From Antedon mediterranea (taxonomy: Eukaryota > Echinodermata > Crinoidea > Comatulida > Antedonidae): 64,000 bases of DNA. The stretch is taken from assembly GCF_964355755.1 (NCBI RefSeq), contig NC_092677.1, positions 18,260,101 to 18,324,100 of the forward strand. The letters are read 5' to 3'. The number at the start of each line of letters is the position of its first letter. Positions within the stretch are counted from its first letter, which is position 1. The position numbers and the translations under genes were made by a program. The notes beneath the pieces were generated by a model. The model ran no database searches. It was not told the DNA's origin and worked only from the letters and a program-made list of their open reading frames with translations. Shown piece after piece: positions 2,175-34,040 of this stretch.

Positions 2175-2188
2175 TAAATATATATATA

Positions 2189-2224: not shown

Positions 2225-2228
<4 letters not shown>

Positions 2229-12267: not shown

Positions 12268-12339
12268 AGTTTTACCAATGATTTTAAACCACTAAATGCA
12301 TTTGTAGGCAGTACTGCTATTTCGTTTTCTTGTAAATAC
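12268..12339 (-). CDS. LRR exon 6 (72 bp, phase 2-2)
   Basis: One 24-residue repeat with YLQENEIAVLP and NAFSGLKSL, of the same subtype as the exon at 20501. Acceptor TTAAAG, donor GTAAGTG. It is only 80 bp from the previous exon, so these two travel as a pair. Last LRR exon recognised. Confidence 0.75.
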
Positions 12340-15300
12340 CTTTAACAAAATACAAGAAGAGTACATAAACAAAGCTTTTAAATTTGTACAATTAAGAAAC
12401 AACATTAGAAAACACTTACAGTTTAACCAATGAAGTCAAACCAACAAATGCATTTTCAGGCAATGTAGTAATGCCGTTACTTCTTAAATCCCTTCAAAAT
12501 AAAAACATGAACACTTGGTAAATAACAGTTCACGATTTGAGGGATTCTTCGTTGGAGAAAATAGTTATCGTTTGGTGTGTATGTCAGTGGATAAATAGTG
12601 ACCGTAACATAATTTGTAACTGTATGTGTATTATTATTTTGTATTACTTATCAATAAACAAGGCCAACAGCCATTAAGTCGCGTGCTACAATGCATAGTG
12701 ATACCGGACCGACAGACAGACCGACAGACAGACAGACAGAGAGACCGACCGACCGACAGAGAGACCGACCGACCGACATAGTGAACTATACTGACCGAAA
12801 TTACTGAACATGTTTAAAAATGTTGAAATGTTTAAAAACATTTATTTTTTTTTAATTTACACGTGCGTAGCCTGTCACTTTCGACGTGCTCGTATAACGT
12901 AATTTCGAGTTGAAAAGTAAGTCAAGAAAACAGAAATCGGGCAAAAAGAGTGCGCAATAACATTTAACGCGCAGTGCGCGCGCAAAAATATGTGCACTCA
13001 TGGCAATTTTGTAAACGCTTAAAATTGCCTGAAATGTACTCTAATTTAATCGAAAAGAAATTTTGAAAATGTTAAGCGCGCGTACGCATGCGTTACATGC
13101 GCTACGCACGTAATTGTATTTATGAAATTTATGAGTACCAAATTTTATTTAATTGTGATTCATGGTTGTGAAGATATGATTACAAACGTGATTTCGTTAA
13201 ATCGTGCGTAGACCGCGTAATTTTTTATTGCGCACCGTGAAAACATAACCACATTGATTCCTGGCCATAAGGAATATACTGTGAAAAATTGACCTAGCTA
13301 GATTAAACTGATATCAAGATAAGGTCAGAAAGCGATAAAACGCATAGTGATACCGGACCGACAGACAGACAGACCGACAGACAGACCGACAGGCAGACCG
13401 ACCGACCAACATAGTGAACTATAACTAACTACTAAAAATGAGAGTCGAATAAGCGTTAAAAAAATTATTCAAATTAAAATGCAAAGTTTATCAACTGAAG
13501 TAATAGGTCGTTACTGTATATAATCGCTAACATAGAAAACGTTTCTAAAACGGAGAGATACACTATATCAAATTTTAATAAAATCTTGAAGAAAATTGAC
13601 CAATAATCAATCCCTTAGGCCTACTTTAAACAGAAACTTTGCAGGAGCGCGAGTAAAGCTTATCATTGTAACTAACGATAAACGTTTCTCAAAAACTGTT
13701 CAAGGGGAGTCGGCTATATAGTTTTTAATTTTTATGAGTTAAGCTTTATACAGTAATTGATTTGTTATAGGTAGCCTTTAGAAAAGAGAAAAATAGTACA
13801 CATCTGGAATCAAATCAACACCAACACAGCTGATGTAATTTGAGGGTATACAATAATAATAATAATTATTATTATTATTATTTATTGAAGTATAAAACAA
13901 ATAAAGAGAGCATTTTAAACACAAATCAGTAAACCGAAAAATGCTCGATAAAAAGTTAATAATATGGAACCTGTCATACATAGATTGTCCCAAATAAAAA
14001 AAAAATGGGAGAAAAACAGATTGAATTGCAACGAACTGAAAAGATGGCCTTAAAAAGGATTTTGAAAAGTTTGATAGAAGGTGCACTATTATTATTATTA
14101 TGAAGTGAATTAGGAAGACAGTTTAGGAACTTCAAAAGCTCGATTAGGCGACTAGGTGGAACAAAAAAGTATAGATGTACTACCGGTAGTAGTCGACCTA
14201 AGAAATCGTTTATAAACTGAAGATCTACATTATAATGAAGGTGGAAATATATAGCGGTGAAGTGAGGTTTATGTAATTAACATTTGTTAATTGGATATAA
14301 TTCGCTGTTTAATTAGAAGCCAGTGTTGTGTACAGTGTGTAATATTGGTGTAAAGTAAGTAAATCTTCAAATGCCGGATGTAAGGCGAGTTGCAGTAGTT
14401 AAACAAAGTTGTAATTTATTAAAGTTGTATTGTCCCCAAAACATGAAAAATAAAGATGAAAAAAATCCAATTTTGAATAGACCATTTTGCAGTTATAATA
14501 AAGTTATTCACTTTCGCCGAAAAAAAATCCGAAAAAAATTTTGATTTCGCTTATAAAAAATCAAAATAAATTTACCATTTTTTCGAACTCATAAGCTCAG
14601 AAATTCCAAAATATTTGATGGTTAGCTAACAACTCATAAATATGCATGATATTTTAATGAGCATCCAAACAGGGGAGATCCGATCTGTTATCTTCACCAC
14701 ATATGGGCGACGAACAGAAGAAAGTGCTGGGGTTTCCCTGATCGTATGATACTGGGCCGATCCAGGGGGGGGGGGAGGGTGTCCACGGGGTCCGGACCCC
14801 CACCCCTAAATTTTAAGGGTGCCCTTTTTTTAGAGGTTCAATATTTTATTCGTGACATATTTGTGTTTATATTAGTATGCACAGAGTAGGCTACACTAAC
14901 CCCAAAAATAACAAGGCCAACAGCCATAAGTCGCGTGCTAAAACGCATAGTGATACCGGACCGACAGACAGACCGACAGACTGACCGACCGACCGACATA
15001 GTGAACTAAAGAGTCGCGAGAGGTGGTGACGCGTGATGATCTCTACTTAAACTTCTAAAAATAGATCGTTTCACATACTACAGAGGGCGCATGTAAACTT
15101 TTTTTGCGCTTTTCAAGATGCCTCGTATATTAGAGAGAGGGAGAAAGCGCAAACAGCAAGATTTGGCAGAACAAGCCAAACTGGTTACATACTAGTAATA
15201 ATGATGATCAGCTAGATACCTCTGGACCACCTATTTTTTTACCCGCCGCCGCTGAAGTCTGTAATAATGATCAGCAAGGCCTAGATACCTCAAGCTCTGG

Positions 15301-18300
15301 ACCACCTACTTTTTTACCCGCCGCCGCTGACGAGGTCTGTCTCCTCCCATTTTTTGTTTATCAAATTAGAAACGGAAAAGCTGCTCATTTAAATCAAATA
15401 AATTCAGTAATCAACATGAACACAATGTCGAATGATAAAAGATTACATGCATCATCAATTGATAATAATAATGGATTATTATCATTGATGACCGTATCGG
15501 AAGAACGCAACAAAAAAGATGTATCTATTGTTAGTCGCCACGTGCTTAGGCTTAGGCTATGCTCACTTTGCTGTTTGCTAGCTAGCTCGCTAATAAAGTG
15601 TCATTTCCGGCGAACTAGAAAGGTGCCATTTATCATGGATTTTGCGTGCGAGAGTACCATTTCCGGCCATCTAAGTGTGTCCTGTAACAAAATTCGCTTC
15701 GCCACAACCCTGTGGCTCAAATACTCAATATCTGATGTGCCCTTTTTATCGGCGGACCCCCCTCTCAAAAATGTCTGGATCCGCCCCAGTGATGTAAAAA
15801 GCTCTGCCGTTAATTTGCTGGTGAGTAGAATTTTATTTTCGATGAATGACACATCCTCCTATAAAAGTTATATCGCAAACTAGACGTTTTTGGCGTATAG
15901 TTACAGGCTTAGCTATCTAGGCAAGGGCTAAAGCATCACTAGGGCCTAGTAAGTAGTTCACTACTGTGTAGTGTAGCAGCTGTAGGCAGGTAGATAATCT
16001 AGTCAGAAAAGTAGACGGGAACCCACTGAGGCCTAGCTAGGTCCTATATACCGTACTCACCTAACTAGGCCATCACTCCACAACTAGCTACAGCAAATAG
16101 GCCTACTATGTTGCTGTACCATTAATATACATTTGGAGCTAGAATTAATTTTAAAGTCTAAAAAAGACTAACAATTATGACAAAAAACAAACATTTGGAA
16201 AATGATCAGGATACAGTACCCAAATAAGTTGACGGTAGAATAGATTGTTGTTGATAGCAACCAAAACGAAAACACTAGTAATTAGACTAGGCCTTTTTTA
16301 GGGAGGAGATGTACTTTTCAGGAATTCTTATACTGTACATTAGTACCCCAAATTGAAAACTTCAGATTCATATACAGAAATAATAACTATATGTATGCAA
16401 TAAATTGTGAAATATTTAACTTTTCTATTTGACTTTTGTATTTATACATCATTGTTTTTAAATTTATAGATTTAAGCTAATGAAGACTGGAACAGAGGTT
16501 ACACCCATACTGCATAAAGGCAACTGGCGGTAGACTCGGTAGTGGAACACAAGATAAATATTGGATGACTATCATAGAGCATTCGGCAAATGTGTTTGTT
16601 GTTTTCCAGCTTTTAAAATGTTGTATAGTTTTCATAATAAAAGCAATAAAATTTGTATAAATTATTTTGCAAACATAGCAACAGCATTAAATAAATAAAA
16701 AATACTACTACAGTACATGAGATAAAATCTCCATAATTTTAATGTGTGAAGATTTACAATACAGTACAGTAAAAAATGAGTTAATTATTAGTATATTTCA
16801 TTGAATGTCTGCATTATTGTTGACAATTTATTTTCAACTATTAATTGATGTGTTGATTGTGTCATTACAGCAATAGCTTGTATTCTGTGATTGTTCATCC
16901 ATTTTAAAGTGTCATAGTAAGAAACGTTCAAATAAATATTGTGAATGTTGCTACCACATTTTGTATTTATTTCTTCACCATTTTCCACTACTTGTTCACA
17001 TTTTCCATTCAATTAGTGTGTTAATACCTATTAAAACAAAGACATTTTTATTAAAATATCTACATAAAAAAGTTTAATTGTGTGAAAGTTGGTTTGAACG
17101 TTATTGCTTTGGAAGAATTTTCAACATAACGGTACTAAAGTACTGTAAAGTACACATCCCAAAAAATATTTAACTTAGATGATTTTGGTCATTTTCTCTA
17201 AAATAATTACATTATTGGATGTACAGTAGGCCTATAGGCCTAGTTACAATTTTCACAAATTTATATTAGCATTAAAATCTAATTAATCATGAAGGAAAAA
17301 CCAAGCACCATAATCTCTCCTGGCCCTGGTTTTATTTTTGGCAGCCATTCACAAGTTTTTACTTTTTGGGTTTCGCTGCTCTTATGTATAATTTTTTTTA
17401 ATCACAAACTCTACATAGAAAAGAAAATTAAATGTTTTGAAATGAATGATATATGAATAATGATGAAGGACTCTTATTATAGTATTATATACTACTAAAA
17501 CCTTATTCTTTACTCCATGCTCACAGATGAATGTAATATTGTAGGCCTAATCCTATTTAAAGCTAGGTTGGCAATAACTATTAATAAGGCTTACAAGTTG
17601 TAGCTATTAGTATTAGCTAGGCCTACTACTCACTCAGGCCTACAACTAGTAGGCCTACTACTAGACTAGCTAGGCCTACTCTATGGATGGTAGGCCTAGC
17701 CCATCATAGATAGGGGATTGTACACTAGCCAGTACAGCTGTACTGGGCTAGCTAGGCTTCCTATACTAACTAACAAAGCTGCACAATATAAACTACAGTT
17801 CTTACTTACCAATCTGCTAGGGCCTAGCCATAGTATTTTCTTCAGATAGGAGTTGTTTTTCTGTTGTTAAACTACAGAACTTTCCCATATCGTCGTCTCG
17901 CCATATCATCGTCGTGTTTTTGGTGATGACCTAGAGGTCACATATACGCACAAGAATCATACAATATGCATAATTCATAAGCTAATTCAGGTCAAGGGTT
18001 AAATTAAACCGGAAGCCAGCTGGCTGCCAGCCAACCGACTTCCGATTTTCTCAGGTAAATTATTTTTTTTTTCGATCCAATTTTTTTTTAAAGTGAATAA
18101 CTTTTATTTATCATTAAAATGGTCTATTCAACAACAACACATCTTTAAGTTCTTTGTTTGGTAGACCATATACAATTGCAATACAGTAATCTAATTTACG
18201 GATGTAGGAAGCCTCAACATTAATCCTATTTTTTTTTCATCCTATCATTTTCATTTCTATAATTTGTAAAAATAATGATAAATTATGAAATTATTTAATC

Positions 18301-21300
18301 TATAAAAGGTCCATAACAATACAAATGGTAGATCATTGTATTTTTGTCTAGATTTGGTAGTTTTCTTAGGTTTACGAATTAAGTTTTCCTTTGGTTAAGG
18401 TGGATATGTCGACTGATGTTAATAATGTATATAATTTGCTTTGTAATTTTTTTTATTTATTCAATATAATCTTTGGTCTATGTAGCAAGGGAAAGTATTC
18501 TACAAATTAAGACTCGACTCAACATAGCTGAACTGGAATCAAGCACATTGTGTTTAGGAATTCTTGATATTAATGTTAGATGATGTGAGATAAAACGAGA
18601 AAATAGAATATGTAAAGTTTATCACAGAAATAAAATTAAAAGATGAAAACCACTTTCTGTTAATGTGTTAATACAACTTAAAACTATCGTTTGATTTGTT
18701 TTGCAAAATACACTGAATTTGGAAAAAACATTATTGATGTTGTATCCGCTTTAATAATAAAGAATAAATCAAAAACTTTGTTATTGTTAACGGTCATGCA
18801 TTTTCACATATTAATGCTATCTATATATAAATTTACTAAAGGGAAAAATTCGATAAATCTCGATTTATTTCAAGAATTTTTACTCGATGGTATATAAAGT
18901 TGGTTCATACTTTCGGTACTGATTTTAACCATCTGATTTAACCCTGTTTACTAATTAAATTGAGTTAGGTAATTAGTTATTGACAATTAAAACAAATTTA
19001 GGTTCAACGATTTTCCCCAAATAGGGGTGTTTTCCAATCGTGGTATACACTGTCTAATGAATGTCCATGGAAAAATACCCGCACACAATAATACGAGTAT
19101 GCTTCGCATTTTCCTATCTCCTACTACGATAATTGTTTTTAATCGAGTATAGCATCATAATTTTGAAGACAGGCATTTTCTTTAAAAAAATACTATTTTG
19201 ATAGATTTAATATAAATTTATACAACTGTTTTGATCTGCGATAAATGGAACATTCCAATCTCTGTTCCACAAGTGTCTATTCCCTCAGTCGTCGTAAAGA
19301 CAAGTACTGTACCGTCATAACAGAAATTCGATCCATTTTATCCAATCTGTGCTCCAGAGGTTGGATATAGGTATTTTTTTAAACGGATAATGAGCTAGCC
19401 TTTCCAGTCGCCGTCTATTATGTACAATCATCTTTATTATTGCAGTTAAACCACCACCCACACCACCACCCTCCCACTCACTGGCATGAGTAGCATTGAA
19501 AAGCCATTAGGGGATAGGCCTACGGTACGGTATGAAGGATCACATGCCCTAAACGCAGATCAACTTTGGTGGTTAGAAACCAACTTAAATATGAATTGGC
19601 TCTAATCTAAGAAACAATTCAAAGCCATAAGACCTACTAATTAAGTTAAGTTAGATAATTATTTATTGACGATTAAAGCGAATTTACGATATTCCCCGAA
19701 TAGAGATGTTTAGGCTACTTTATTACTGACAGTTCCTTCTGAACGTTAATATTAATTAATAACCTAATTACTGTACAAAAATATAAACGTCGTATTAGTG
19801 TACTATTTCAATCGACTATATGGTGACAGTTTCAACAAAGTATTAAATAGCAATGTTTTACTGTGTTTAGTCATGGAGGTATAAATACCTCCATGGTTTA
19901 ATGGTATATTATTTGTAAAACATGAAAACAATTAATATTTCGTTACTAAATGGATAAAGAATATATTTAAAAATTGTTCGTCTTTGCACCCATCCTCTTC
20001 CCTATCCCTCAACCTTCATGTTGTATACAAAACACAAATTCAGTTTGTTTCAAAACAATTGGTCTTATTTTGTGACAAGTTTCTCTTTCGGAAGTAATTC
20101 CCAGGGTGCTAATTTTAGTTGAGTACATAAATCACCGTGTCTATTTATTCGTTCCTGTAAGCGACAAGTATTATTGTCTTGCATGTACATTTGAAGTCGC
20201 CAATTTTTTAAAGATGAAATTACTATGTATTCGAGAACCATCTGTGGGCATGACCGAGATGGTACGCGAGCGAAGCGAGCGTACCATCTAGTTATTATAA
20301 TTTTACAATATTGTAAAATTATTATAATTTTACAATATTGTAAGACACCAGCACGTTACGCTGAACGTTATGGAATTTAGAAACAGGTAAACTTATCCTT
20401 AATTGTATAATATCATAATCACAATTATTAACAATTAAAATTGTAAACATTACAACATTTACATTTTTTAAAGTAAGAAAATAAATAGTAAAACACTTAC
20501 AATGTTACCAATGATTTTAAACCGCCAAATGGATTTGTAGGCAATACTGCTATGTCGTTTTCTTGTAAATACCTTTAACGAAATATAAGTAAGAGTAAGT
20601 TAACAAAATCACCTCCTTTATATTGGAGAAAATAGTTAAAGTTGCCTGTGTCAGTGGTTGAAATAGTGACCGTAAATAAATGTATTGTATTACGTGTATT
20701 ACTAGATGGTCGATAACAATAGGAACGTTAAATTATTATTTAAAAAAAGAATTTAAAGTTTATTGACAGATTGTAGATTATTCGGTTTTTAACTAGATTT
20801 GGTAGATTTGTTTATGCCTACGAGTTCATTTTCCTTTGGTCAAGGGGGATTGGTCGGCTGAATTTATATGATTTAGCTTTGTAATTTATTTGTTATATAG
20901 GTAAAGTCTCTGAACATTGTCTCAATGGTGTAATGATTTATTTGCAGTTTAGCACGTGACAGTATTCTTCCTCCTCTGGGCCTACGGCATAATGTGAGCG
21001 AAAACATCAGTATACATTTGCCAAAAAGTGACATAAAAGTATAAAGAATACTCGATAACAATACTTTATAATAATCTCATATTGCACCTCTACGTACTTA
21101 CACATTGTTTGGTAATGTAGTGTAAAAAAGTGACATAAAAGTATAAAGAATACACGATAAAAATACTTTATATTAATCTCATATAGCACCTCTACATACT
21201 CGCAAATTGTTTCTATATATAAATTTACGTAAGGGCAAAATTCGGTAAATCGCGCGTTATTTCTAGAATGTTTACTCGATGGTATATAAAGTTGGTTAGA

Positions 21301-24300
21301 ATCTCGGTACTGATTTTAACCACCTGATGTAACCATGTTTACTAATTAAATTGACTTAGATAATTAGTTATTGACAATTAAAACGAATTTAGGTTCAACG
21401 ATTTTCCCCAAATAGGGGTGCTTTTCGATCGTAGTATACACTGGATGTCCTTTTGAAAAATACCTGCACACAATAACACGAGGATGCTTCGCATTTTTAC
21501 TATCTCCTCCTACGATAATTGTTTTTAGTCGCGTGGACGCGACTCTATAGTTCACTATGTCGGTCGGTCGGTCTGTCGGTCTGTCTGTCGGTCCGGTATC
21601 ACTATGCGTTTTAGCACGCGACTTATGGCTGTTGGCATTGTTAATAGCTGAAAACTGGTTGAACAGATCGAGTACAGTATCATAATGTTGAAGACAGGCC
21701 GATTTTCTTTAAAAAATACTATTTTTATAGATTTAATATAAGTTTATACAAATGTACTATCAAGGTCACGTTACAAACCGCAGAGAAAAAAACGAGGTGT
21801 TCAGACCCATAGCGTACGATTATCGTTACAACGGAAGTACGTCATCCAGGTTGTTTCTAGTTGCATATTCATGTGCTCTTACCCACGTGTTTTCATCATT
21901 ATTTCCACTGTATATAGGCCTAGATCTCAGCCCTACAATTATGACAAAATTTGCCGTAAATAAAACATACCTCAGCATTTATTTAAGAAAAATATAGTAA
22001 AGCCAAATTTCTGTTTCTATTCTTTTTATTTTGTAGTAAAAAACATTCTCCCCAGGCTCTTGTGTTACGAAAATAAAGCAGGCCTCGTAATGATGAAGAA
22101 AAAATATGATTGTGATTAGTCTATCCAGTCCAGTCAAAGATATTATATTCTTTGGTCCAGTCGGTTGAAAATAACCCTTAACTTGCTAATAAAAGGGACA
22201 CAGCTCCCCTTGTTTGTTTACTAATTTTTTTAGGAGTTAGGGGGTTTTCAGCATTAAACTTGTCCAGTCTAGTCTGCCTTGTATGAATGAGTGACTTGAT
22301 GTCCTACGCTAGTTTTTAGCTTGAATGAAATGCGTGAATGGCTCTAGGCCTAGCTAGGCCTAAAAGCGGATGGGATCGTAGTCCCTATGTTTAAATACAA
22401 GGTGCATGTATCTATGTCATTTGTTAGAAAATATAATGGTAATCAGTTGATAATAGTTTGTAGCCTTTGTAAGAGTTGTATTTGTAGTGTAGTTAGGCCT
22501 TATTTATTCTGGCCTTTTTGTTATTGAAATCCATCTAACACAATAGACGATACAAGATGTCGGCCTAGGTCAAACCTTGTTTCGCGTCATAACAGGAAAC
22601 GTTCTGATTGGATACAACGTTGACTTACAGTAGCGTCGTAAGCTAAAACGGTACTATCAACCGTTTTCCACTACAACGCTACAACCGTTGTACGACGCGT
22701 TGTACGCTAATCCCCAACTGTTCAGACACACATTCTTTTAGCGTCGTACGCTAAAACGGTCTAACGCCATGGGTCTGAACAGGGCCTAAGGCTCTGCGGT
22801 TTGTAACGTGACCTTGATAGTAACGTTGTACGCTAAAACGGTCTAACGCCATGGGTCTGAACAGGGCCTTAGACTCCCAGTTTGTAGGTAAATTTATGAG
22901 CCCTTGGTGTAACACAAGTAGGTAAATTTATGGGCTCTTGGAGAATAAACTTAAAACTGAGATATAGTATTGCAACACTTTTGACAATATTGTAGCCTAA
23001 ATACGTAACCATTTTTGGTCGCCATTTGAATCGACATTTTTTTACTGTGAATGTGGTTACTGTTAGATATATAAACACATATACAAGGAACATTTAATAC
23101 TGACTGTGGGTAGCCTCTACTGCTGGATATATAAACAGATAATATACAAATAAAAACTTTATTACCAGTTTTTTTACGCGGAAATTACCGTGTATTCGAG
23201 AACCATCTGTGGACACGACCTAGATGGTACGCGAGCGAAGCGAGCGTACCATCTAGTGTTTAGTAATGTAGTGTAAGCAAAGATACTAAAAGATACGAAG
23301 CATTTGTTCTATAATACAACACTTCTGTAAGGTCTTAAACCTAAAAGGACTTTGATGCAAGAATTAACAATTGTAACATTTGTACATTTAAGAAAACCAT
23401 TTTCTTACCACTGAATACCCTGTAATACAAAAAACAGTACAACTTAAACCTATCATTTGAATTATATTGCCAAAAAACCAAAACATTTTCTGTTTTATCC
23501 GCTTGGACAAAAAAGAATTAATCAAAGAAGTTGTTATTGTTCACAGTCATTGTTATTGTTCACAGTCATTAACACCAGTAGCGCTTCACTTTGATACCCT
23601 TTAACGTATTACTGTTATAGTGTACCCTCATTTTACAAGATATTAAAGGCCTAATACAACGTCATGGTGGTATTTAGAAACAGCTAATTAACACGATGAT
23701 TTACTTAAAATTGTAAAGCTTTTAAATTTGTACAAGAAAATATATAAAAAAACACTTACAGTTTAACCAACGATGTCAAACCACCAAATGCATTTTCAGG
23801 CAATGTATTAATGCCGTTACGTCTTAAATTCCTTAAAAATAAAACATGAACACTTTGGTAAGTAACAGTTTACGAGCCTTTTCTTTGGAGAAAATAGTTA
23901 CATGTGTGTATGTCAGTGGAATAAATAGAGAACGTAAAAAAATGTGTAATCTGTATTGTGTACTGTGATATACCAAATAAACAAACAGTATTCAAACAAT
24001 CCACTTGGCAAGTGCTTTTATTTGTATTCTCACATTCATATACAGTATAACAAACGTTCCAGTCAAGTGTATTCTCACATTCATATAATACCAAACGTTT
24101 TTCTGTGTGCAGTAGGCTAGCATGTATCGCATCTATAACTAACGCTATTGTGTCCGCGTCGTTGTATGCCCCGTTATTATAAAGGACTGACCATCTGTAG
24201 ACCAATATGCAAAGTAAAGCAACTCGCAGACCAAGTAGGCTATACATAAATAACTACGTAAACACTACATGTACTATTATTGTGTACAACGTGAGGGTAG

Positions 24301-25752
24301 GAAATGTAATATCCTTTACAATGATACAAAATTTAATATTTAACATGAAGGGGATCTTGTGATACGTACGTTATGTCGAAGCATGTATAAAGAAATATAC
24401 AAATCAAATAACAGTTTTGAGAAAATCATGATTGATTGTCAGTGTTATTTTATAAGTATCACACAAATATTATACAATGAAATGTTTTTTTGTAGGATGT
24501 TAATTACTGTGCCAATGTAGTCCTATACAAAAACTATTTCCACATGCTATGTAAACAGGTCAAATGTCAATTTAAGGGATAAGCCAATTACAAGTCAAAA
24601 CAGTACTATATTTCTACTACGTGCTAACCATTACGTGGCGTATCCTTGACAACGGATTTCTGTTTATAAAAAGAATTAAAAAAAAAGATATTATAGGCCT
24701 AGTACAACGTCATGGTGGTATTTAGAAACAGCTAAACCTACCCTTAAATGTATAATTAACATGATTTACTTAAAATTGTAGAGTTTTTAAATGTGTACAT
24801 GTAAGAAAAAACATTAGAAAACACTTACAATGTATCCAATGATGCCAAACCAACAAATGCATTTTCAGGCACTGTAGTAATGTCGTTACTGTTTAAATCC
24901 CTTAAAAATAAGACACGAACACTTGGTAAATAACAGTTCATAAGTTGAGAGCTTCTTCTTTGGGGAAAATAGTTACAGTTGTGTATTGTAATGTAATGAT
25001 ATATATTTATAATTGAAAAATCAACATTAGTATCACAATCCAATTGAATTCACTAATTTGCCCCAGAAAGGTACAGAGAAGGAATTGTCCAGATATTGTA
25101 AATGTCCACTAGGCACAATAATTAGTTCCCCAAAGAAAACAGTTGATTTCTTTCCCATCGTAAAACTATTAGATATTGACAGTTATATGCACAGATTGGA
25201 CAGAGCCAATCCATTATCGGAATACCTTATAGACACAATCAACTCATCCAAAATATACCTAGATAAACTTAGGACCTATAGTTAAGATGATGTAATGACA
25301 TATGCTAACAGAAGCCGATATACCACCAAGTTTCAGAAGAACCCAGACGCACCTAACAGACACTTCTTCGGAGCAGACACCTTGCTGACACTTCCTCGGA
25401 AGCACATCTACAGCTACGCCTTACTTACAGAATCATTTATACTTTGTTCCTGTTTCTTTATTTCTATACTTATTATTTAAACTGGCACTGTCATAGTCGA
25501 TTAAAATAGTAAAGTACATGTACCGATACACCACTACGACGTATTTTTTGTAATTACTAATTATTTACAAACGTTGAGAAGCAACAACTGTCAGTAATAA
25601 AATATAAATTTATATATTATGTGTTTATAATCTAACAGTTGGGCCTACCCACACTCGCAATAATAAAGTTTATTACCTCCGCCAAGGAGGTTATGTTTTC
25701 ACCCCTGTATGTGGGTGGGTGTGGGTGGGTGTAGGGGTGGGTGTGTGTGTGT

Positions 25753-25787
<35 letters not shown>

Positions 25788-28700
25788 TGTGAACAGCCTG
25801 GAGGCCACAGTTTTCATCCGAATCCGGCCAAATTTGGCCACAATGATCTATGCCCAAAAAGCTCGGATGAGTTCGAATTTGAGGGGAAAAGTTCATAGGT
25901 CAAGGTCACAACTAACAAAAAACAATTTTACTGCCTAGAGATCACAGTTTTTAACCAATTCTCAACTTAGCCACAATGATCAATGACACATCATATAATT
26001 GTGGCTAAATTTTGAAGGGTCCGGGTCAAAGATCAAGGTCCACAAAAAAAAAAATTTAAAAAACCCTTGAACTAGCGATCTCAACTGTGAGAGGCTGGAT
26101 ACATAACCATTACACCACACTGTCATCCACAACTTTGTAGTATGCAGTAAGCCTATTTACACTTAGAACTAATAAAAAAAAATGTTAAAAAAAAAATATT
26201 CAGGGGCATTTTTTATGTAGGGGAATTTTACAGTAGGCGGATGTTTGTACTCTCCGAGTATCCTCTAGTTTGTATATATGTTTATATTATATCTAACAGT
26301 ACAAACACTCACAGTAAGAAATTTGCGATTCCAATGGCGGCCAAAAGTGGTTATGTATTTACAGTATTATATATTGCAATACCATATCTTAAGGTTTTAA
26401 GTTTATTCTCCAAGGGTCCATAAATGTATTTACTTGTGTTAAACCAAATAATTTGTAATGTTCCATTTAGTGGAGTCTGTTAGGAATATTTTGGTTCATT
26501 TTTTCCAAAAGCACCAAATTTGGTATACAGGTTGACAACCCTATACAAATTCAATTTTTGATGGGCGGCAAGCATAATTTAAAATTTGCATAATTTAAAA
26601 TTTGCATAATTTAAAATTTGCATAATTTAAAATTTATTTGATTATAAATGTTATTATATTACAAATTAAATGCCCCAATAAACGCAGTACTTGTTGATGT
26701 TATATTCATCATCTAAGACGCATTTCAATAATTGTAACCGAAAACGTCCTATCCAGAACGTCCTTTTACAATCTGTGTAGTTTTTACATAAGTCATGTCA
26801 CCCTCTAGTAATTTTAGAAATACAGACAATCAATGGTGTAATGATTTATTTGCAGTCTAGCACGTGACAGTATTCTTCCTCCTCTGGGCCTACGGCAGAA
26901 TGTGACCGAAAACATCAGTATACATTTACCAAAAAGTGACATAAAAGTATAAGAATATTCGATAACAATACTTTATAATAATCTCATTTATTGCCGCTAC
27001 ATACTCAATTGACAACACATTTTATGTTTTATCCGCTTTGACAATAAAGAATAAATCAAACAAAGAAGTTGTTATTGTTCAGTCATTATCACCAGTAGCG
27101 CTTAACTTTGATAACATACCCTTTAACGTATTGTTATAGTGTGCCGACATTATACAAGATATTAGAAGCATAATACAACGCATGGTGGTATTTAGAAACA
27201 GCTGAACCTACCCTTAATAATGTATAATTTCACAATTAACATGTTTTACTTAAAATTGCAAAGTTTTTAAATGTGTACAAGTAAGAAAAAACATTATAAA
27301 CACTTACAGTGTAACCAATGATGTCAAACCAACAAATGTATTTTCAGGCAATGTAGTCATGCCGTTACTGCTTAAATCCCTTCAAAGTAAAAACATGAAC
27401 ACATGGTAAATAACAGTTCACGAGTTGAGGGATTCTTCGTTGGATAACATAGTTACAGTTTGATCTGTATGTCAGTGGATAAATAGTGTAATCTGTATTG
27501 TGTACTATTATTGTGTATTACGTTCAGTGAAAATGAGAGAGAGTCGATAACTGTATAAATGTTTAAATATTATTTAATTTAAAATGCAAAGTTTATCGAT
27601 TGATTACGTTAGGAATAGGTCGTCAATGTGTATGATCGAGGGAAAACGTTTCTAGAAAGGAGAGATATATCAAAATGTTAATAAATCTTAAAGACATTTG
27701 ACCAATAATCACTCTCTTAGGCCTGCTATAAGCAGAAATGTAGCAGCAGCGTGAGTAAAATTAATCATTGTAACTAAAGATAAACGTTTCTCCAACACTT
27801 TTCAAGGGGAGTCGGCTAAAGTTAAGAATAATTTGTATGAGTTAAAGATGTATTTTCCCTTTGACTACTTCCTAAAAAAATTGTAAAAAAATATTTCGAA
27901 AAAAAGTGGGTAATTTTGAAGTATCATAATAGTTATTAACTTTCACCAAAAATTAGTCGGGGAAAAAATCATTTAACTGAAATACAGACGTTTTTTTGTT
28001 CAAAAAATAACTTTGACTTCCAGTCAAAGTTTTCGATCAAAACATGTCTCATAATGCAACGCACTTGTTTGGCTACTCTGTATGCATAATCATAAAACTT
28101 CATCGCAATCTGTGTAAAAACACCTTCTCAACCGTGACGAGTTGTAAACAATCCTAATTAGCATCATGCATAATGCATACTCGTGGTTTAAATCTTTGTT
28201 TACTTTCGCTCGCGACGATTTTCCAGACGAAATTTAATCAAATTAATTTACCTGTTAATTACGTAAACTTGTTGTTTTTTGCTCACATTATCGACTTAAA
28301 GTGAATAACTTTAATATTACTTTGATATGGCCAATTTAAATTTAGAATATTTTGACCTTCATTTTTTGTGTTTCAAGGGAGAATACATCATTGAGCTTTA
28401 TACAGTAATTGATACCCTCTAGAAAAGAGAAAACAGTACATATCTGGACTCAAACCAACACCAACAGCTGATTTATTCTGAGGGTATATAAAATAATTTA
28501 AATATAACTAAAACGCATAAAGAGAGCAATTTATACAGAAAATCGAGTTTATGCTCGTTGAAAAGTTTGGCAAGCTCAACTAAAGATTAATATGAAATAT
28601 CTCACACATTGATTCATTGACGTAAGCAAAGCCTTTATACTGACTTTAAAAAAGTCAAAATTTAAAAAAAATAACCAAGTACCAAATTATAATATAGATA

Positions 28701-31700
28701 TGTTTCAAACAAATCCTTTCTACAATTTCTGTACACGAATCTTAAATTTAGAATTGTAGAAAATACAGTTCGTTACTGTATACTGTATCTAATTTATGAA
28801 CGTAGAAAGGAAATTATAATACGCACATCTTAGTTCCTTTAATTCTAATAATGTCTAAATTAATGTGCTTGATTTTAATTGAGGATTTTTAGGTCGATTC
28901 TTCAACGATGGTATTATTTATTTATTGTCGAGATAGTGAGAGCCATTTTTGGAAGCACATTGCTGCACATCAATCAATACGGAACTTATGTACGGAAACA
29001 TTATTGATTAAAATGTGTATGTTGCTTTTTATAATTATTCTTTTACGCTAGTCCTGAATTTTTAATTAGGATTACATTAACTAATCCTACATTTCCATCA
29101 TATTTTCATTTCTAGTTTTTCTATTTCAACACTAGGCATACATATTGCACTTTGCATAAACAAGTTCTTGAATGATACTTACAAGTATGTTATTGGTTGA
29201 TGGCTATTGTAGTTCCTGACGGATTCTGCAGTTATAATATTATAATTCCGACAAGTTAAGTAGTTAAATGAACACGAGCATTTGATTGGACATATCTGTG
29301 TTAGGAATAATTTGTCTGAAAAAAAAACCAGTTAGTTACTAGTTTCGAATTTAATCAAATGGACAGTTACAATTTAAAAGATAGCTATATAGCTAAAAAA
29401 TTAACTATTTTTGTCATTAACTGAATTGTATAAGACTCTTTAGTAGTACTGGAAGTTGTTTAAAAGGTAGATGTATTTTTTTTCTGGTAGGTCATTCTTC
29501 ACCAGAGACTAATATCTACTGTTGTACATCTGCAATTTTGGATTCGTGGATTTGGGACACACCAGATAAATAGTTATTATTAATAACAAAAATATCTTGT
29601 TACTTCAAATGCCTAAATGTTGTGTATAATTTTGTTGGTATAGGTCGGTAGAATTGGTATAGTCTCTGACAATGCACCATTCTTCTACTCTTTGTCTGCC
29701 TTTTCCAGAGTAGTGGATGAAGTCTCTTTTGCAAAATGTAATATGTTTATTTTAAAACATCTTACCATTACGTTTGTGAATTTCTTCCAATTGGTCAATC
29801 GATTTTCAACGTCATAATTGTTAATTTTAGAAAGGAGATTTCATGGTGACCAGGGAGTGTTTATTTGCCTAATTTCTCTGCAATCTACAAGTTGTGTCTG
29901 ATTATGAATCAAGTAAACAGCATACTAGGCTATTATTAATAAATTAAATAATAAATTCATGGCAGGAAGCTAGCCTAGGGTCTGGAATATAGATGGCGAT
30001 TCGTCTTAACATTTGTTTTAAAAACTTGATCTGGAAACATCTAAACGGCAAACTAAACGTCAAAAACCAATAATAGAGCATTGAGAATTTGCTATATTAT
30101 GTTCCACGGCACAGCGATCTTCTTTTTATTAGATACAGTGTTTTATTTTAGAATTGTCGCAAGGAGTGTTTCTCTGTTAAGTATCTTCTATGAAATCTTC
30201 AATAAGCCTAAGCAGATATCATGGTATGAAACATATATTTTTTCAGTAGTTCAAATACAATCATGGATTATTAATTAAGAAGACATTGAAACCTACAATA
30301 AATCCTACTTTCAGAATTAATTAAACGCACCCGTTCTCGTCTTATAATTGTCCAACAAAAACATGAACAATTAAGATTAATAAAATCAGACTTGAATAGC
30401 CCATTTTGTAAAAAAAAAACCGGAAGCAAATGATGTTTCTATTCCTACTTATAAAAAGACGGATTAAAGATGTACATAAAATCTTATTGGGCTGACAGCC
30501 AATTTGACTATTTGTAAAACATTATTTTGCTAAAACAATTGTTTACCTTGTGTAACAATTACTGCTGTAACTGTTGCATTAAATCCTCTCTTTGTTACAA
30601 AACCATCAGTAGACAAAGCAATCCACATTGTGTTGTTGTTGGAAACTACAGAATCAAATATTGAACCTGTAAACCTAACATTATATCTATTTCCTCCTGC
30701 AAATGCTAAATTCAAATAATCATATCCGTTCTCCAGTTGAAAGTCGTTGAACTTAATACGAATAACCAACTCTTGAAGGGTCGTAACCATCCATTCACAC
30801 TTTAAATTGTTTTCGTAGTATTTCGGATAATTAGGAGACCAAAATGCATATGATGAGTTCTCAGATTCAAGATGAATATCCCTGTTACATTCTGCAAAAA
30901 TGTAGAATTTAATAATATAATACACGGATATTTAAATGTAATACAGATGTTAAGAAAAGTGATATCTATTACGCATGATGATTTGTAGCAACAAATATGG
31001 TAGAATTAAACCACTTAAATCATACAATTCAAGTTTCTAACGCGAAAACATTTTTAATTCAAAATTTAAGAGAACATTTTAATTCTATATTTTAAATGTT
31101 GCAATTTTTGTATGTTTTATCGCATTTGTAATGTATTTTATAAGTATATTAATGTATTTCTATATAAGTATTATAATGTATTTTATATCTTATCTTGCCG
31201 AAGAAGACAGTAAAAAAAAATCTATTTTTGACAATAAAGTTAATCTATGTCTAGGTCTAATATATTGTTTACAAAAAAAACATTGATAGAAAAATAACGT
31301 AATTAATAATTTAGGAAATCATAATATTTGATATTTTCAATATAACTTTACAAGTTATTTGGATACTCCTGTATAATATCTAAATGTGATTGGTGGTTAT
31401 GATAGTTATTTTTACCTATCATTGTGTTTTTACTTGGGGTACCCGAGTCTAGTACTTACTCATTTTCTCCATCTGGACACTATTGAGTAAAAAGTGCGAT
31501 TTTTAAAGTACTACTCCTCCCTTATTAGTTGTAGTATTGAGCTGGGATTTAGCATGAATATACTACAGGGACATTTCCTCAAATCTATAGAGCCGGATGT
31601 TTAAATTTCAAACCGGATGCAGCCATATGACGTCTCGAAGATGGTACCATATAGCCGTATTTGGTAGGTTATTGATGTGTATGTGACGTCACATCCCGTC

Positions 31701-34040
31701 TTATGACGTCATCTTCATTTGCTGTACCTCGAGTATCGCACATTCGTGATTTTTACTCGGGGTACCCGAGTCTAGTACTTACTCATTTTCTCCTCCACCA
31801 TCTGGACACTATTGAGTAAAAAGTGCGATTTTTAAAGTACTACTCCTCCCTTATTAGTTGTAGTATTGAGCTGGGATTTGGCATGAACATACTACAGGGA
31901 CATGTCCTCAAAGCTATAGAGCCGGATTTTTAATTTTTTGTTAATTAATTTGTTTAATTAAGAATCCACAATGTGTGACACACACCACAGCGTTATGTAG
32001 TTATATGGTTATATGCGGCTTCTTGGCGTAGTGGTTATCACGTTTGCTCAATACGCAGAAGGTACCTGGTTCGAGCCCGGGCTAAACCTTTTTTTTAAAC
32101 TTTATGGTGAAAAGTACTGTATACGCAATATGATAATTATACACAGTATATCTTATTATTATTTTTTAAAATACTTATTTTGTGTAATCGGTAATTATCA
32201 CTTTTACACATGTTTATTTTGCTTTGTGCTTATTACCATTTATTTGTAATTTAAATGGATTAAAAAACTTTCTGTAACCCACAATTTCAATGTAAGAGGT
32301 TTCGTAGTGTAGTGGTTGTCAAGTCTGCTTAACATGCAGAAGGTCCCGGTTCGAGCCCTGGCGAAACCTATTTTTCTTTAACTTTCTAACTGTATACGTC
32401 TGTATACAGCTTCTTTCGCTGTACCCCGAGTATTGCACATTCGTGCTTGTTTGTTAATTAATTTGTTTAATTAAGAAGCCACAATGTGTGACACACACCA
32501 CAGCGTTATGTGGTTATATGCGGCTTCTTGGCGTAGTGGTTATCACGTTTGCTTAACACGCAGAAGGTACCTGGTTCGAGACCGGACGAAACCTTTTTTT
32601 TTTTAAATTTATGGTGAAAAGTACTGTATACGCAATATGATAATTATACAGAGTATATCTTATTTTTATTATTTTTTAAAATACTTATTTTGTGTAATCG
32701 GTAATTATCACTTTTAAACAAGTTTATTTTGCTTTGTGCTTATTACCATATTTATTTGTAATTTAAATGGATTAAAAAACTTTCTGTAACCCACATTTTT
32801 AGTATAAGAGGTTTCGTAGTGTAGTGGTTGTCAAGTCTGCTTATCACGCAGAAGGTCCCGGTTCGAGCCCTGGCGAAACCTATTTTTCTTTAACTTTATG
32901 GTGAAATATACTGTATACGTAAACTAATATAGAGTATATCTCGTTTTATTACTCGGGGTACCTGAGTCTAGAACTCTCTCATCTTTTCCTCTTCTTCTTC
33001 CATCCGGACACTATTGAGCAAAAAGTGCGATTTATAAAGTACTACTCCTCCCTTATTCGTTGTAGTATTGAGCTCGGATTTAGCATGAATATACTTCAGG
33101 GACATGTCGTCAAAGCTATAGAGCCGGATTTTTTAATTTCATACCGGATGCAGCCATATGACGTCTCGAAGATGGTACCGTATAGCAGTATTTGGTAGCG
33201 CGGTTATTGATGTGTATGTGACGTTACATCCGGTCTTATGACGTCATTACAGCTTCTTTCGCTGTACCCCGAGTATTGCACATTCGTGCTTGTTATATAT
33301 AGTTTTAACAATAATTATGGTCATTAACTCAGGACGTGCTAAAGTATAATTTATGATAGACATAATATATAAAATTAGATTACCAATGTCCAAACAGTAA
33401 TCAGCAATTGCCATGGCCCAGTTTATCCCATTTATAAAAGTGTGAATTTTATCAATTACCTATTGATGAAAAATATTTGATTTCTGTGTGTACTTTGTTA
33501 AGTAATAAAATGGTTAGCGATATTGTCCGTTTAGGTTTCCAGTTTTAACTGTACAAGGAAAGTCAGCACCTGTAATCTACATTTACGCCAAAGCTTAAAT
33601 CTGCACATGGATAAAAACAAACAACAGAGACGACTTCAAGCAGGTAAATCAAATTTACAAATAACAAATGCCTATCGTCTTCTTCTTTACTTATGTAACA
33701 TTACATAAACATTAACTGAGTTCATGTTACTGTTTGAACTAATAGTCATAACATTTTTAGTATGTTATGTAGAAAGAGAATCACGATTGATCAAGAGAGA
33801 TAAAATACATTTTTGTTCTACAGAATCGACCAGTTTTCTGTAGAAGAGAATCACGGTTGCTCAAGATAGAAACGATTGTGTACAATTGTGGAGAATTTCG
33901 ATTTTCAATCAATTCTCTTTTGATATTTTTTTTGTTGGAATACAAAAGTAAAACAAGTTCAAGTACTTGAAACCATACTCACGAATAGAACAGCTTGAAA
34001 ATGGTACAACAACCAACATGAGAACGCAAAAGATGAACAT
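12268..34040 (-). CDS. CUB-LRR secreted or surface protein, 3' end not found
   Basis: Nine exons on the minus strand join in one frame: 33983-34040, 30547-30891, 29183-29315, 27308-27379, 24829-24900, 23760-23831, 20501-20572, 12420-12491 and 12268-12339. Together they give 322 codons without a stop. Predicted order: signal peptide (residues 1-19), CUB (20-134), LRR N-terminal cap (about 142-178), six 24-residue LRRs (179-322). Intron phases run 1, 1, then 2 throughout, and all splice sites are GT-AG. CUB and LRR modules bind proteins or glycans outside the cell, so the product should be a recognition protein. The C-terminal cap and any membrane anchor are not seen; they may lie left of the window or have been lost among mobile elements between 1 and 12 kb. 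Exon usage and the number of LRRs in the mRNA are unverified. Confidence 0.72.
12420..12491 (-). CDS. LRR exon 5 (72 bp, phase 2-2)
   Basis: One 24-residue repeat with DLRSNGITTLPENAF and GLTSL, nearly the same as the exons at 27308 and 24829. Acceptor TTTGAAG, donor GTAAGTG. Confidence 0.8.
12658..12915 (+). repeat. GACC/GACA-bearing repeat, copy 3
   Basis: Nearly identical over its whole ~255 bp to 7403-7650, apart from minisatellite length (it has an extra GAGAGACCGACC block). This suggests recent copying of the larger unit. Confidence 0.88.
13338..13425 (+). repeat. GACC/GACA-bearing repeat, copy 4
   Basis: 5'-truncated copy starting inside the element at AACGCATAGTGATACCGG and ending CATAGTGAACTATA. 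Confidence 0.85.
14911..15012 (+). repeat. GACC/GACA-bearing repeat, copy 5
   Basis: Starts AACAAGGCCAACAGCC and ends GTGAACTAAAGAGTCGCG, keeping the GTCGCG-type terminal motif that defines the end in the copy at 21528. Confidence 0.85.
15190..15883 (+). pseudogene. unrecognised frame inside the TIR element
   Basis: A frame open for about 230 codons begins upstream of the first ATG at 15416 and contains a ~90-bp tandem duplication (LDTS..GPP.FLPAAA occurs twice). A short basic N-terminal peptide, MPRILERGRKRKQQ, is encoded in a different frame at about 15118-15195. The 3' half overlaps sequence resembling a MITE end, which argues against a true protein. No known family seen. Confidence 0.25.
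18820..20291 (+). mobile_element. non-autonomous Helitron, copy 1 (1472 bp)
   Basis: Begins 5'-TCTATATATAAATTTAC after an A. Ends in a hairpin (AGATGGTACGC, an 11-base loop region, GCGTACCATCT) whose last bases run into terminal CTAG, followed by T. This is the Helitron rule: 5' TC, 3' hairpin then CTRR, insertion between A and T without target duplication. No Rep-helicase coding capacity. A full second copy lies at 47589. Confidence 0.8.
19866..19900. repeat. 27-bp palindromic micro-insertion flanked by GTTTA
   Basis: CATGGAGGTAT-AA-ATACCTCCATG, with GTTTA on both sides. The Helitron copy at 47589 lacks it and has a single GTTTA, which proves it is an insertion. A relative sits at 52370. 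Confidence 0.75.
20501..20572 (-). CDS. LRR exon 4 (72 bp, phase 2-2)
   Basis: One repeat with YLQENDIAVLPTNPF and GLKSL. Sister copy of the exon at 12268. A Helitron ends about 210 bp downstream in transcript order, at 20291. Confidence 0.75.
21528..21640 (-). mobile_element. GACC/GACA-bearing element with defined ends, copy 6
   Basis: Inserted in a Helitron whose other copies give the empty site. Sequence TTTTTAATAGCTG is split so that TTA is duplicated (21525-21527 and 21641-21643). The 113-bp insert starts GTCGCGTGGACGCGAC and ends GGCTGTTGGCATTG, with the tetranucleotide array inside. A 3-bp TTA duplication is compatible with PIF/Harbinger-type mobilisation, but terminal inverted repeats are not obvious. 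Confidence 0.75.
21757..22820. mobile_element. 1.06-kb TIR element with TA target duplication
   Basis: Perfect ~29-bp inverted ends (CTATCAAGGTCACGTTAC at 21757 and its complement ending at 22820), flanked by TA on both sides, as in Tc1/mariner-type insertions. A second inverted module (TGTTCAGACCCAT) lies just inside each end. No transposase frame; non-autonomous. Confidence 0.75.
22870..23100 (-). repeat. interspersed repeat, inverted relative to 26270
   Basis: Shares blocks with 26270-26440 in opposite orientation: the 'ATGGCGGCCAAAA' type segment, a run near GTTTTAAGTTTATTCTCCAAG, and CCATAAAT.TATTTACTTGTGTT. Both copies are in introns of the CUB-LRR gene. Confidence 0.65.
23760..23831 (-). 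CDS. LRR exon 3 (72 bp, phase 2-2)
   Basis: One repeat with NLRRNGINTLPENAF and GGLTSL. Donor GTAAGTG and acceptor TTTTTAAG intact. A Helitron/MITE composite (21212-23256) lies in the following intron. Confidence 0.8.
23870..24247 (-). other. 125-codon frame with signal-like start, unproven
   Basis: Open minus-strand frame just upstream, in transcript order, of the LRR exon at 23760. It starts with a hydrophobic segment (LGLRVALLCILVY) and is cysteine-bearing, with a short internal duplication (YECENT twice). It could be an alternative first exon of the LRR gene, but it has no match I know and base composition is like the intron. More likely chance. Confidence 0.15.
24829..24900 (-). CDS. 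LRR exon 2 (72 bp, phase 2-2)
   Basis: One repeat with DLNSNDITTVPENAF and GLASL. Splice sites intact. The valine before PEN replaces the usual leucine. Confidence 0.8.
25664..26055 (+). repeat. interspersed repeat starting ACCTCCGCCAAGGAGGT
   Basis: A terminal hairpin (CCTCCGCCAAGGAGG), then a (GT)n/(GGGT)n tract (25705-25790), then a conserved body (GTGAACAGCCTGGAGGCC, TTTGGCCACAATGATC, repeated with divergence near 25968). The left terminus equals the end of the 8107-8566 repeat. Repeats of this look are common in marine invertebrate DNA; I cannot name the class. Confidence 0.75.
26062..26130 (-). mobile_element. tRNA-derived SINE head fragment
   Basis: On the minus strand, a box-A-like TGGTGTAATGGTTATGTATC is followed about 35 bp later by a degenerate box B (GCTAGTTCAAGG). 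Spacing fits a tRNA-derived SINE promoter. No tail found. Confidence 0.4.
26572..26634. repeat. 16-bp tandem repeat, four copies
   Basis: GCATAATTTAAAATTT repeated four times, the last copy imperfect. Confidence 0.9.
26832..26990. repeat. segmental duplicate of 20924-21080
   Basis: About 155 bp nearly identical between the two sites (CACGTGACAGTATTCTTCC, GGGCCTACGGCA, AGTGACATAAAAGTATAA). With the duplications around 11.1, 18.2 and 28.4 kb it shows repeated copying inside this gene's introns. Confidence 0.8.
27308..27379 (-). CDS. LRR exon 1 (72 bp, phase 2-2)
   Basis: One repeat with DLSSNGMTTLPENTF and GLTSL. It joins in phase 2 to the cap exon at 29183, where split codon TT|G gives the leucine that opens the repeat. 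Confidence 0.8.
27860..28400. mobile_element. TIR element related to the one at 14473
   Basis: Left part has ATAATAGTTATTAACTTTCACC (about 27,929), right part has AAAGTGAATAACTTTAATATTAC (about 28,300). These are inverted and like the ends of the 3.66-kb element. About 500 bp, no frame. Boundaries uncertain. Confidence 0.4.
29183..29315 (-). CDS. LRR N-terminal cap exon (LRRNT)
   Basis: Acceptor TTTTTTTCAG, donor GTAAGTAT. Carries CPIKCSCSFNYLTC, the C-x3-C-x-C-x6-C pattern of an LRRNT cap, then a segment ending HQPITYL that leads into the first repeat. Enters in phase 1 and leaves in phase 2, matching both neighbours exactly. Confidence 0.8.
30547..30891 (-). CDS. CUB domain exon
   Basis: 115 codons, phase 1-1, the usual shape of a shuffled CUB exon. 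Has the CUB signature SPNYPKYYENNLKCEW, a central DYLNLAF segment and the C-terminal GFNATVTAV strand. Only the first cysteine pair (CNRD and KCEW) is present; the second pair of a standard four-cysteine CUB is missing. Acceptor TTTTTGCAG, donor ACAAG|GTAAAC. Confidence 0.88.
31432..31734. mobile_element. MITE 'GGGGTACC', copy 1
   Basis: Left end ACT(T/C)GGGGTACCCGAG, right end GCTGTACCTCGAGT: short inverted ends (ACTCGGGGTAC) around about 300 bp. Also at 31755 (truncated) and 32951. Confidence 0.7.
31755..31935. mobile_element. MITE 'GGGGTACC', copy 2 (truncated)
   Basis: Starts ACTCGGGGTACCCGAG and follows copy 1 closely through AGCTATAGAGCCGGAT, then stops at the sequence that precedes the first tRNA-Val-like gene. 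Confidence 0.7.
32017..32089 (+). tRNA. tRNA-Val-like, type A, copy 1 (anticodon position AAT)
   Basis: 73 nt with a good box A (GGCGTAGTGGTTATCACG) and box B (GGTTCGAGCCC). The anticodon stem is TTTGC/GCAGA and the loop reads AAT, which is not valine. The acceptor ends pair poorly. Probably a pseudogene of the neighbouring type A copy. Confidence 0.45.
32298..32369 (+). tRNA. tRNA-Val(AAC), type B, copy 1
   Basis: 72 nt. The acceptor GGTTTCG/CGAAACC is perfect, the box A GTAGTGTAGTGGTTGTC is that of eukaryotic tRNA-Val, the anticodon stem TCTGC/GCAGA is perfect, and the loop carries AAC. One mismatch in the T stem. The best candidate for a working tRNA in the cluster. Confidence 0.75.
32522..32594 (+). 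tRNA. tRNA-Val(AAC)-like, type A, copy 2
   Basis: Loop TTAACAC gives anticodon AAC, and boxes A and B are intact. Acceptor has two mismatches. It sits about 505 bp from type A copy 1, within a duplicated unit. Confidence 0.6.
32810..32881 (+). tRNA. tRNA-Val-like, type B, copy 2 (anticodon position ATC)
   Basis: Same perfect acceptor as type B copy 1, but the loop reads TTATCAC, so the anticodon would be ATC. Otherwise intact. Either a pseudogene or a recoded copy. Confidence 0.5.
32951..33274. mobile_element. MITE 'GGGGTACC', copy 3
   Basis: Complete: ACTCGGGGTACCTGAG at left, GCTGTACCCCGAGT at right, 324 bp. Closes the tRNA cluster on the right, as copies 1 and 2 do on the left. Confidence 0.75.
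33983..34040 (-). CDS. signal peptide exon of CUB-LRR gene
   Basis: ATG at 34040 follows CGTAAGAAG. It encodes 19 residues: M, a hydrophobic core (FCVLMLVVVPF) and a small-residue cleavage region (SSCS). It ends in phase 1 with donor GTGAGT. The split base C plus AA of the CUB exon gives Q, just before the first CUB cysteine. The distance to the CUB exon is 3.1 kb, spanning the tRNA-Val-like cluster. Confidence 0.7.

Follow-up and report, generated by a model that had tools for sequence, protein, structure and literature searches.

CUB-LRR genes of the crinoid Antedon mediterranea: a probable recognition family of relaxin-type LGR descent in which ten members are likely secreted

The variable lymphocyte receptors (VLRs) of lampreys and hagfish are somatically assembled from 24-residue LRR cassettes, giving a capped solenoid with its diversity on the concave face. 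Truncated or soluble splice variants of RXFP receptors have an antagonist role. The LDLa module is called distinctive of the type C LGRs in the accessible text of PMC11863921, and that of PMC8286064 gives ambulacrarians one ortholog of each type C LGR. Ciona has 30 receptors with INSL3/relaxin-receptor-like transmembrane regions and reworked N-termini, among them 14 with LDLa repeats and no LRRs and 14 without a recognisable domain (PMC2396169, accessible text). Lists of GPCR domains place CUB under adhesion GPCRs, and LRR and LDLa under the rhodopsin type (PMC12716839, accessible text). In the open-licence literature searched, the accessible portions described neither CUB-LRR-7TM receptors nor relatives of these without the 7TM, nor LRR-exon duplication. 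If the reading given below is right, what is new here would be the combination of CUB with LRRs, the branch that lacks a 7TM and the pattern on the concave face; for expansion itself Ciona is a precedent (PMC2396169).

The locus described here belongs to a genome of 354 Mb in 18 contigs. The window, the whole 64,000-nucleotide stretch that was analysed (C8:18260101-18324100), carries the 5′ half of a CUB-LRR gene, and the predicted gene model extends 50 kb past the window's low end. We consider it quite probable that this gene and its truncated relatives form a diversified recognition family descended from relaxin-type LGRs, in which ten genes likely encode secreted proteins. The exon anatomy, the window gene's open frame, the family relations, the lack of a 7TM exon among the matches listed and the variation in exon number and at particular sites are observed; splicing, secretion, ligand binding and a soluble decoy or recognition role are inferred. 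The window gene as predicted has 16 exons over 84 kb on the minus strand, and these join, with matching phases and splice sites, into a single open frame of 542 amino acids. Its features, in window coordinates unless a contig is named, are as follows.

33983..34040, minus strand: exon 1, with the start codon and a signal peptide, MFIFCVLMLVVVPFSSCSI, recognised by eye; phase 0-1
30547..30891, minus strand: exon 2, CUB domain (Pfam PF00431, 3.8e-16); phase 1-1
29183..29315, minus strand: exon 3, LRRNT-like cap (C-x3-C-x-C-x6-C); phase 1-2
27308..27379, minus strand: LRR exon 1, 72 bp, LPEN type; phase 2-2
24829..24900, minus strand: LRR exon 2, 72 bp, LPEN type; phase 2-2
23760..23831, minus strand: LRR exon 3, 72 bp, LPEN type; phase 2-2
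20501..20572, minus strand: LRR exon 4, 72 bp, LPTN type; phase 2-2
12420..12491, minus strand: LRR exon 5, 72 bp, LPEN type; phase 2-2
12268..12339, minus strand: LRR exon 6, 72 bp, LPTN type; phase 2-2
10832..10889, minus strand: dead exon of an LPEN-type LRR, within the intron that follows LRR6; its acceptor AG is altered, and a deletion has removed the 3′ end with the donor
C8 18259911 down to 18209974, minus strand: LRR7 to LRR12 and the tail exon, beyond the window; from an exon scan, a reading of 80 kb and the joined frame

An earlier reading of the window from its letters alone had proposed six single-LRR exons of 72 bp behind a CUB and LRRNT front end. Each of the six minus-strand exons indeed has an AG acceptor, a GT donor, phase 2-2 and one 24-residue LRR, and the signal peptide, CUB and LRRNT-like exons join in frame at the positions listed. 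An exon-aware scan of 184 kb found 11 LRR exons, every one on the strand of the window gene, together with ten other matches (4 plus, 6 minus) that were not LRR-like by eye; LRR12 was recognised by eye in addition to the 11. A plain LRR motif scan was empty because the motif is split by exon borders. LRR11 is 75 bp long, and the stop codon of the tail exon lies at C8:18209974.

In Pfam, the window protein matches CUB (3.8e-16) and LRR_8 (1.9e-67), with no LDLa, no 7TM and no LRRNT match in the LRRNT-like exon; its cysteine motif C-x3-C-x-C-x6-C is what we take to be an LRRNT. Against the PDB, the ectodomains of LGR4 and LGR5 are among the best matches of the LRR part, behind IGFALS and LRRC15, and the tail exon gave a chance match only. 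An AlphaFold model of the CUB domain (pLDDT 82.7) has as its best Foldseek matches the CUB domains of TSG-6, neuropilins and C1r.

Several other features lie in the window. In the intron between the signal-peptide and CUB exons, at 32000-32889, a 0.5-kb block that is duplicated in part contains four repeats resembling tRNAs; two of them were called as tRNA-Val and one as tRNA-Asp (anticodon atc). tRNA-Thr was called at 2375-2448 and 2731-2804. Copies of a repeat that has GACAGACCGACAGAC motifs and the same flank each time occur in both orientations at 12675-15013, 10114-10192 and 21567-21645. On the plus strand, pieces of non-LTR-like retrotransposons span 1076-7530, where 4591-5361 and 5325-6398 match reverse transcriptase, and four frames with SRCR domains (Pfam 1.1e-11 to 2.9e-29) span 45230-49465. 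A frame at 49988-50371 encodes a hydrophobic segment and a tail rich in proline, and perhaps belongs with the SRCR frames to one multi-SRCR membrane receptor.

The six LRR exons of the window fall into the two subtypes of the earlier reading: an LPEN type comprising LRR1, LRR2, LRR3 and LRR5 (88-93% identical in the five pairs shown), and an LPTN type comprising LRR4 and LRR6 (93%). Matches between exon pairs at the DNA level reach E-values of 4e-26 (LRR1/LRR5) and 1e-31 (LRR7/LRR8). The exons of LRR7 and LRR8 are 99% identical, and with their flanks 93% over 394 nt. LRR4 has five matches in the genome, full length only at LRR4 and LRR6. Intron flanks were copied as well, as had been noted: alignments within a subtype extend over 195-534 nt, with 74-87% identity. 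LRR5 and LRR6 are 80 nt apart, so their mutual flank comparison also aligns a single stretch with itself.

The idea that these exons spread mainly by segmental duplication was not supported. Same-type matches reach 35-248 nt upstream and 45-295 nt downstream of the exons and then end, and because they stop 35-295 nt either side, the duplicated blocks look exon-sized. Colinear pieces of 97-927 nt do occur farther out between LRR exons, above all between LRR4 and LRR9 (up to 927 nt); these are probably dispersed repeats, and could also be remnants of larger blocks. Exon-sized duplications may have been followed by intron growth. Retroelement frames are present within the window and downstream of it. 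The dead exon at 10832-10889 is 91% identical to LRR5 over 57 nt, and its flanks match those of LRR1, LRR2, LRR3 and LRR5. It can be passed over with the frame unchanged, which agrees with the view that the LRR exons are frame-neutral and interchangeable. Elsewhere in the genome, about 15 LRR-bearing frames of 210-443 amino acids lie at C3:5547639-5659433, on the plus strand at the low end and on the minus strand beyond; another expanded LRR family is possible there.

Family relations were traced from the tail exon. It has 65 matches in the genome: itself, nine on contig C9 and 55 that cover the hinge only. The nine C9 tails, at 16.97-17.85 Mb, match the whole tail at 67-70% identity. The 55 hinge-only loci show 39-55% identity over about 30-43 residues of the tail (best E 2.6e-5); 46 have open frames of 308-372 amino acids and nine have short or broken ones. 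Ten hinge loci were translated (L031-L040), and in each the hinge is followed by a 7TM domain in the same frame. The window gene's tail is thus a homologue of a cysteine-rich hinge, cut short relative to the 7TM-bearing loci.

A compact paralog lies at C9:16713506-16724983. Read exon by exon in pieces, as were the other C9 genes, it contains CUB, LRRNT, LRR1, LRR7, two LRR9/10, LRR11 and LRR12 exons, and a final exon in which hinge and 7TM stand together (Pfam 7tm_1, 1.4e-31). Its DNA is 89% identical to that of the window gene in the CUB exon and 87% in the LRRNT exon, and its LRR1 match carries a 16-nt deletion. In the PDB, its 7TM domain is closest to relaxin receptor 1 (8.3e-42), followed by the LH receptor (1.3e-25), which bears out the LGR likeness first suspected from the single-LRR phase-2 exons. 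The CUB-LRR combination, which had seemed unfamiliar, is present; it is not a stand-alone architecture, being instead the ectodomain of relaxin-receptor-like 7TM genes, of which the window member lacks the 7TM. Four tandem 7TM exons with 5.13-kb spacing (C9:16723982, 16729110, 16734239 and 16739367, the last broken) lie downstream of one CUB exon.

Searching the genome with the compact paralog's 7TM gave at least 86 matches when the best 120 of 238 candidates were scored. Of the listed matches, 69 are long, spanning 311 or more of the 334 residues; within this group, 55 are at least 59% identical (two with an internal stop) and 14 are 31-50% identical. Other expanded 7TM clusters lie on C7, C1 and C5 and at 24 Mb on C8. 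LDLa, in what is the customary layout of type C, occurs within about 30 kb of seven other 7TM loci and of the cluster at C3 6.97-7.17 Mb, whose 7TM domains are 41-61% identical, and none of the best 150 of 955 LDLa candidates lies on C9 or near C8 18.2 Mb. As LDLa is found near other 7TM loci and none is listed near the CUB genes, CUB probably took the place of LDLa within one expanding branch.

On C9, nine CUB exons alternate one-to-one with the nine truncated tails, all on the minus strand, with 39-155 kb between partners. DNA matches to the signal-peptide exon lie upstream of 11 of 13 C9 CUB exons. None of the 86 listed 7TM matches (best 120 of 238 candidates scored) falls in the nine C9 intervals or near the window gene. 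With the CUB and tail shared and no 7TM listed, the window gene is taken to be a tenth, dispersed member of this set. The nine C9 tails end at the same codon, which is TAA in one of them and TGA in the other eight; in the window gene this position is read through, and the stop comes about 17 codons later. As the tail stops before the 7TM, the ten truncated genes probably encode secreted CUB-LRR ectodomains.

LRR exon number also varies across the paralogs, as had been anticipated. The nine truncated C9 genes have at least two to six LRR1 (LPEN)-type exons and at least two to five LRR9/10-type exons, dead ones included, these counts being lower bounds with the best 40 of 77 (LRR1) and the best 40 of 93 (LRR9/10) candidates scored. 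By DNA matches, they also have zero to two LRR7-type exons and one LRR12 each. Three 7TM-bearing genes on C9 have at least zero to four LRR1-type, zero or one LRR7-type and at least two to four LRR9/10-type exons, and one LRR12; here the compact paralog's deleted LRR1 copy was left out and its LRR7 was added from direct reading. Among 37 LRR9/10-type exons read on C9, 30 are clean and open and seven have a broken donor; lacking a GT donor, these seven would be skippable without loss of frame. Among 36 LRR1-type exons from C9, 34 are clean and open, one (L124) lacks its 5′ end, and another (L115) is open with intact splice sites and a changed N9. LRR12 is clean and open in all 13 C8 and C9 genes considered (10 without and three with a 7TM; 12 by script and L082 by eye), seven more distant matches having been left out.

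The pattern of substitutions is sharpest in the LRR9/10 type, which was analysed as the 28 distinct sequences among 34 exons (30 from C9, two from the window gene and two from the compact paralog), the seven broken-donor exons excluded. Variability is highest at positions x3, x5, x7 and x8, which we assign to the concave side of the solenoid: this set ranks first among 8855 sets of four positions. At these positions pN is 0.581 and pS 0.284; elsewhere, pN is 0.074 and pS 0.181. The ratio of concave pN to all-site pS is 2.95 (exon bootstrap 2.64-3.44, with 0 of 2000 replicates at or below 1), as obtained by counting methods on related copies in which gene conversion may lower dS. The scaffold is retained, with L6 kept in 27 of 28 sequences and N9, F19, L22 and L1 in all 28, while the codons of L6 and N9 vary synonymously; selecting exons by DNA similarity and excluding dead ones favours alike scaffolds. 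In LRR12 (12 exons, 10 distinct), concave pN is 0.323 against a pS of 0.058 at the same positions and 0.029 over all codons, and the set ranks 9 of 8855. The pattern is weaker in the LRR1 type (24 distinct): concave pN is 0.227, with a pS of 0.035 at those positions and 0.087 over all codons, and the set ranks 267 of 8855. The likely binding surface of the LRRs thus seems to have been altered by selection.

The same variability might arise if these genes were ordinary LGR paralogs with relaxed constraint at solvent-exposed LRR sites and no recognition role. Variability is common at exposed LRR positions. In LGRs it is usual for an exon to encode a single LRR and for some such exons to be skipped at times (PMC8286064, accessible text), and Ciona offers a precedent of expanded relaxin-receptor-like GPCRs with changed N-termini (PMC2396169, accessible text). 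Relaxation alone, however, brings pN only up to pS, whereas concave pN is about 2-3 times pS in the LRR9/10 type and 5-11 times in LRR12, where synonymous changes are few; each range reflects whether pS is taken from the same codons or from all codons. We therefore regard this explanation as rather unlikely.

We judge it improbable that the ten genes are decaying pseudogenes, functionless after loss of the 7TM and intact only through recent duplication, although several observations point that way. No 7TM match was listed in the ten genes, dead LRR exons occur (10832-10889 in the window; seven of 37 LRR9/10-type and one of 36 LRR1-type exons on C9), and the stop position differs between the window gene and the C9 copies. 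The window gene's ten LRRs of the types analysed, when pooled, have a pN/pS of 0.91 with no codon-position bias. The CUB domain has a pN/pS of 1.06 (bootstrap 0.73-1.59), which is compatible with no selection on average. Positive selection on CUB had been considered and was dropped at this value, an estimate of 1.14 having come from counting identical copies. These LRR and CUB values also tell against the preferred reading, as do the low rank of the LRR1 type, the unshared stop and the weak constraint on the tail between the window gene and the C9 genes (dN 0.16-0.20, dS 0.20-0.29). As a control, the 7TM domains of two C9 genes have a dN/dS of 0.15.

Against decay, most of the intron blocks near the CUB exon that align between the window gene and the C9 genes are only 66-80% identical by local alignment. 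All 14 close copies of CUB nevertheless have an open frame, and they differ in length by whole codons only. CUB dS is low relative to this intron divergence, perhaps from gene conversion. Furthermore, the window frame is open across 16 exons, LRR12 is clean in every one of its 13 genes, and the LRR scaffold residues are kept while L6 and N9 codons change synonymously. As to CUB itself, its variation is concentrated in codons 49-80 (pN 0.15-0.17, versus 0.03 in codons 1-16). In the model, the variable stretches lie mainly in loops by eye, and two of them adjoin the near-invariant D57 and D95, positions that bind calcium in other CUB domains.

All ten truncated tails have a donor-like ATGTAAAG within the hinge, ahead of the stop; it could join the tail to another C-terminus and is the main loophole in the secreted reading; splicing from it to a transmembrane or diverged 7TM exon would yield a membrane receptor, and 7TM-bearing relatives do lie on the same contig, but we think this quite improbable, since no listed 7TM match at E ≤ 1e-20 falls in the ten gene intervals (best 120 of 238 candidates scored), the tail search gave no hinge-type 7TM match near C8 18.2 Mb, and the 30 kb downstream of the tail, viewed by eye, hold retroelement frames and no receptor-like frame.

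Under the preferred reading, a diversified family of CUB-LRR genes with ten probably secreted members, the ancestral form would have been a 7TM receptor of the relaxin-receptor-like kind (type C LGR) whose ectodomain consisted of CUB and LRRs. The hinge/7TM exon would have been cut after the hinge in an ancestor of the window gene and the nine tandem C9 genes; what was left would be the signal peptide, the CUB domain, the array of LRRs and a cysteine-rich cap. The ten genes would most likely make secreted CUB-LRR proteins capped by the hinge cysteines, in which CUB and the concave side of the solenoid would bind an extracellular ligand. Their repertoire would diversify through gene duplication, gain or loss of frame-neutral LRR exons and substitutions at x3, x5, x7 and x8. 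The secreted proteins may bind the ligands of their 7TM paralogs as soluble partners or decoys; alternatively, they may recognise microbes or conspecific cells. Such a role could be immune, chemosensory or reproductive.

A broader proposal is tentative, and we would not favour it as it stands: that a relaxin-type LGR exchanged LDLa for CUB, multiplied, and shed the 7TM in ten genes to become a germline-diversified recognition system. Its LRR cassettes would be added, lost and possibly alternatively spliced, its concave face would be under diversifying selection, and each individual would carry a different set of soluble and membrane-bound forms directed against microbes, gametes or conspecifics. 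If the preferred reading is right, the scaffold of a peptide-hormone receptor was converted into a recognition family that is large and changes fast, in which membrane-bound and soluble members coexist and the LRR exons are units that can be counted and skipped. The contribution of exon modularity to receptor diversity would then become testable within a single group of loci, as would the origin of secreted LRR recognition proteins from signalling receptors.

Among described systems, the surreal-GPCRs of echinoderms are similar in being lineage-specific 7TM expansions, but a search of the accessible text of PMC7042368 found neither leucine nor CUB. The relaxin-receptor-like expansion of Ciona likewise combines lineage-specific multiplication with altered N-termini; its members differ in having LDLa without LRRs or no recognisable domain, and CUB was not found in the accessible text of PMC2396169. 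Soluble RXFP variants resemble the ten truncated genes as receptor ectodomains without a 7TM, but are made by splicing, whereas the loss here is in the germline of ten genes.

VLR chains are among the PDB matches of the window gene's LRR part, and VLRs share with this family 24-residue LRR cassettes, a capped solenoid and concave-face diversity (rank 1 in LRR9/10, 9 in LRR12 and only 267 in LRR1). In contrast to VLRs, the cassettes here, known from one assembled genome, are germline exons with splice sites and are accompanied by a CUB domain. From the type C LGRs (RXFP1/RXFP2, Drosophila LGR3/LGR4 and GRL101), the family differs in its N-terminal CUB instead of LDLa, in the lack of a 7TM in the window gene, and in its tens of copies, against one ortholog each in ambulacrarians (PMC8286064, accessible text). 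With those same receptors it shares single-LRR exons, a cysteine-rich hinge and, in the 7TM-bearing paralogs, a class A 7TM domain closest to that of RXFP1.
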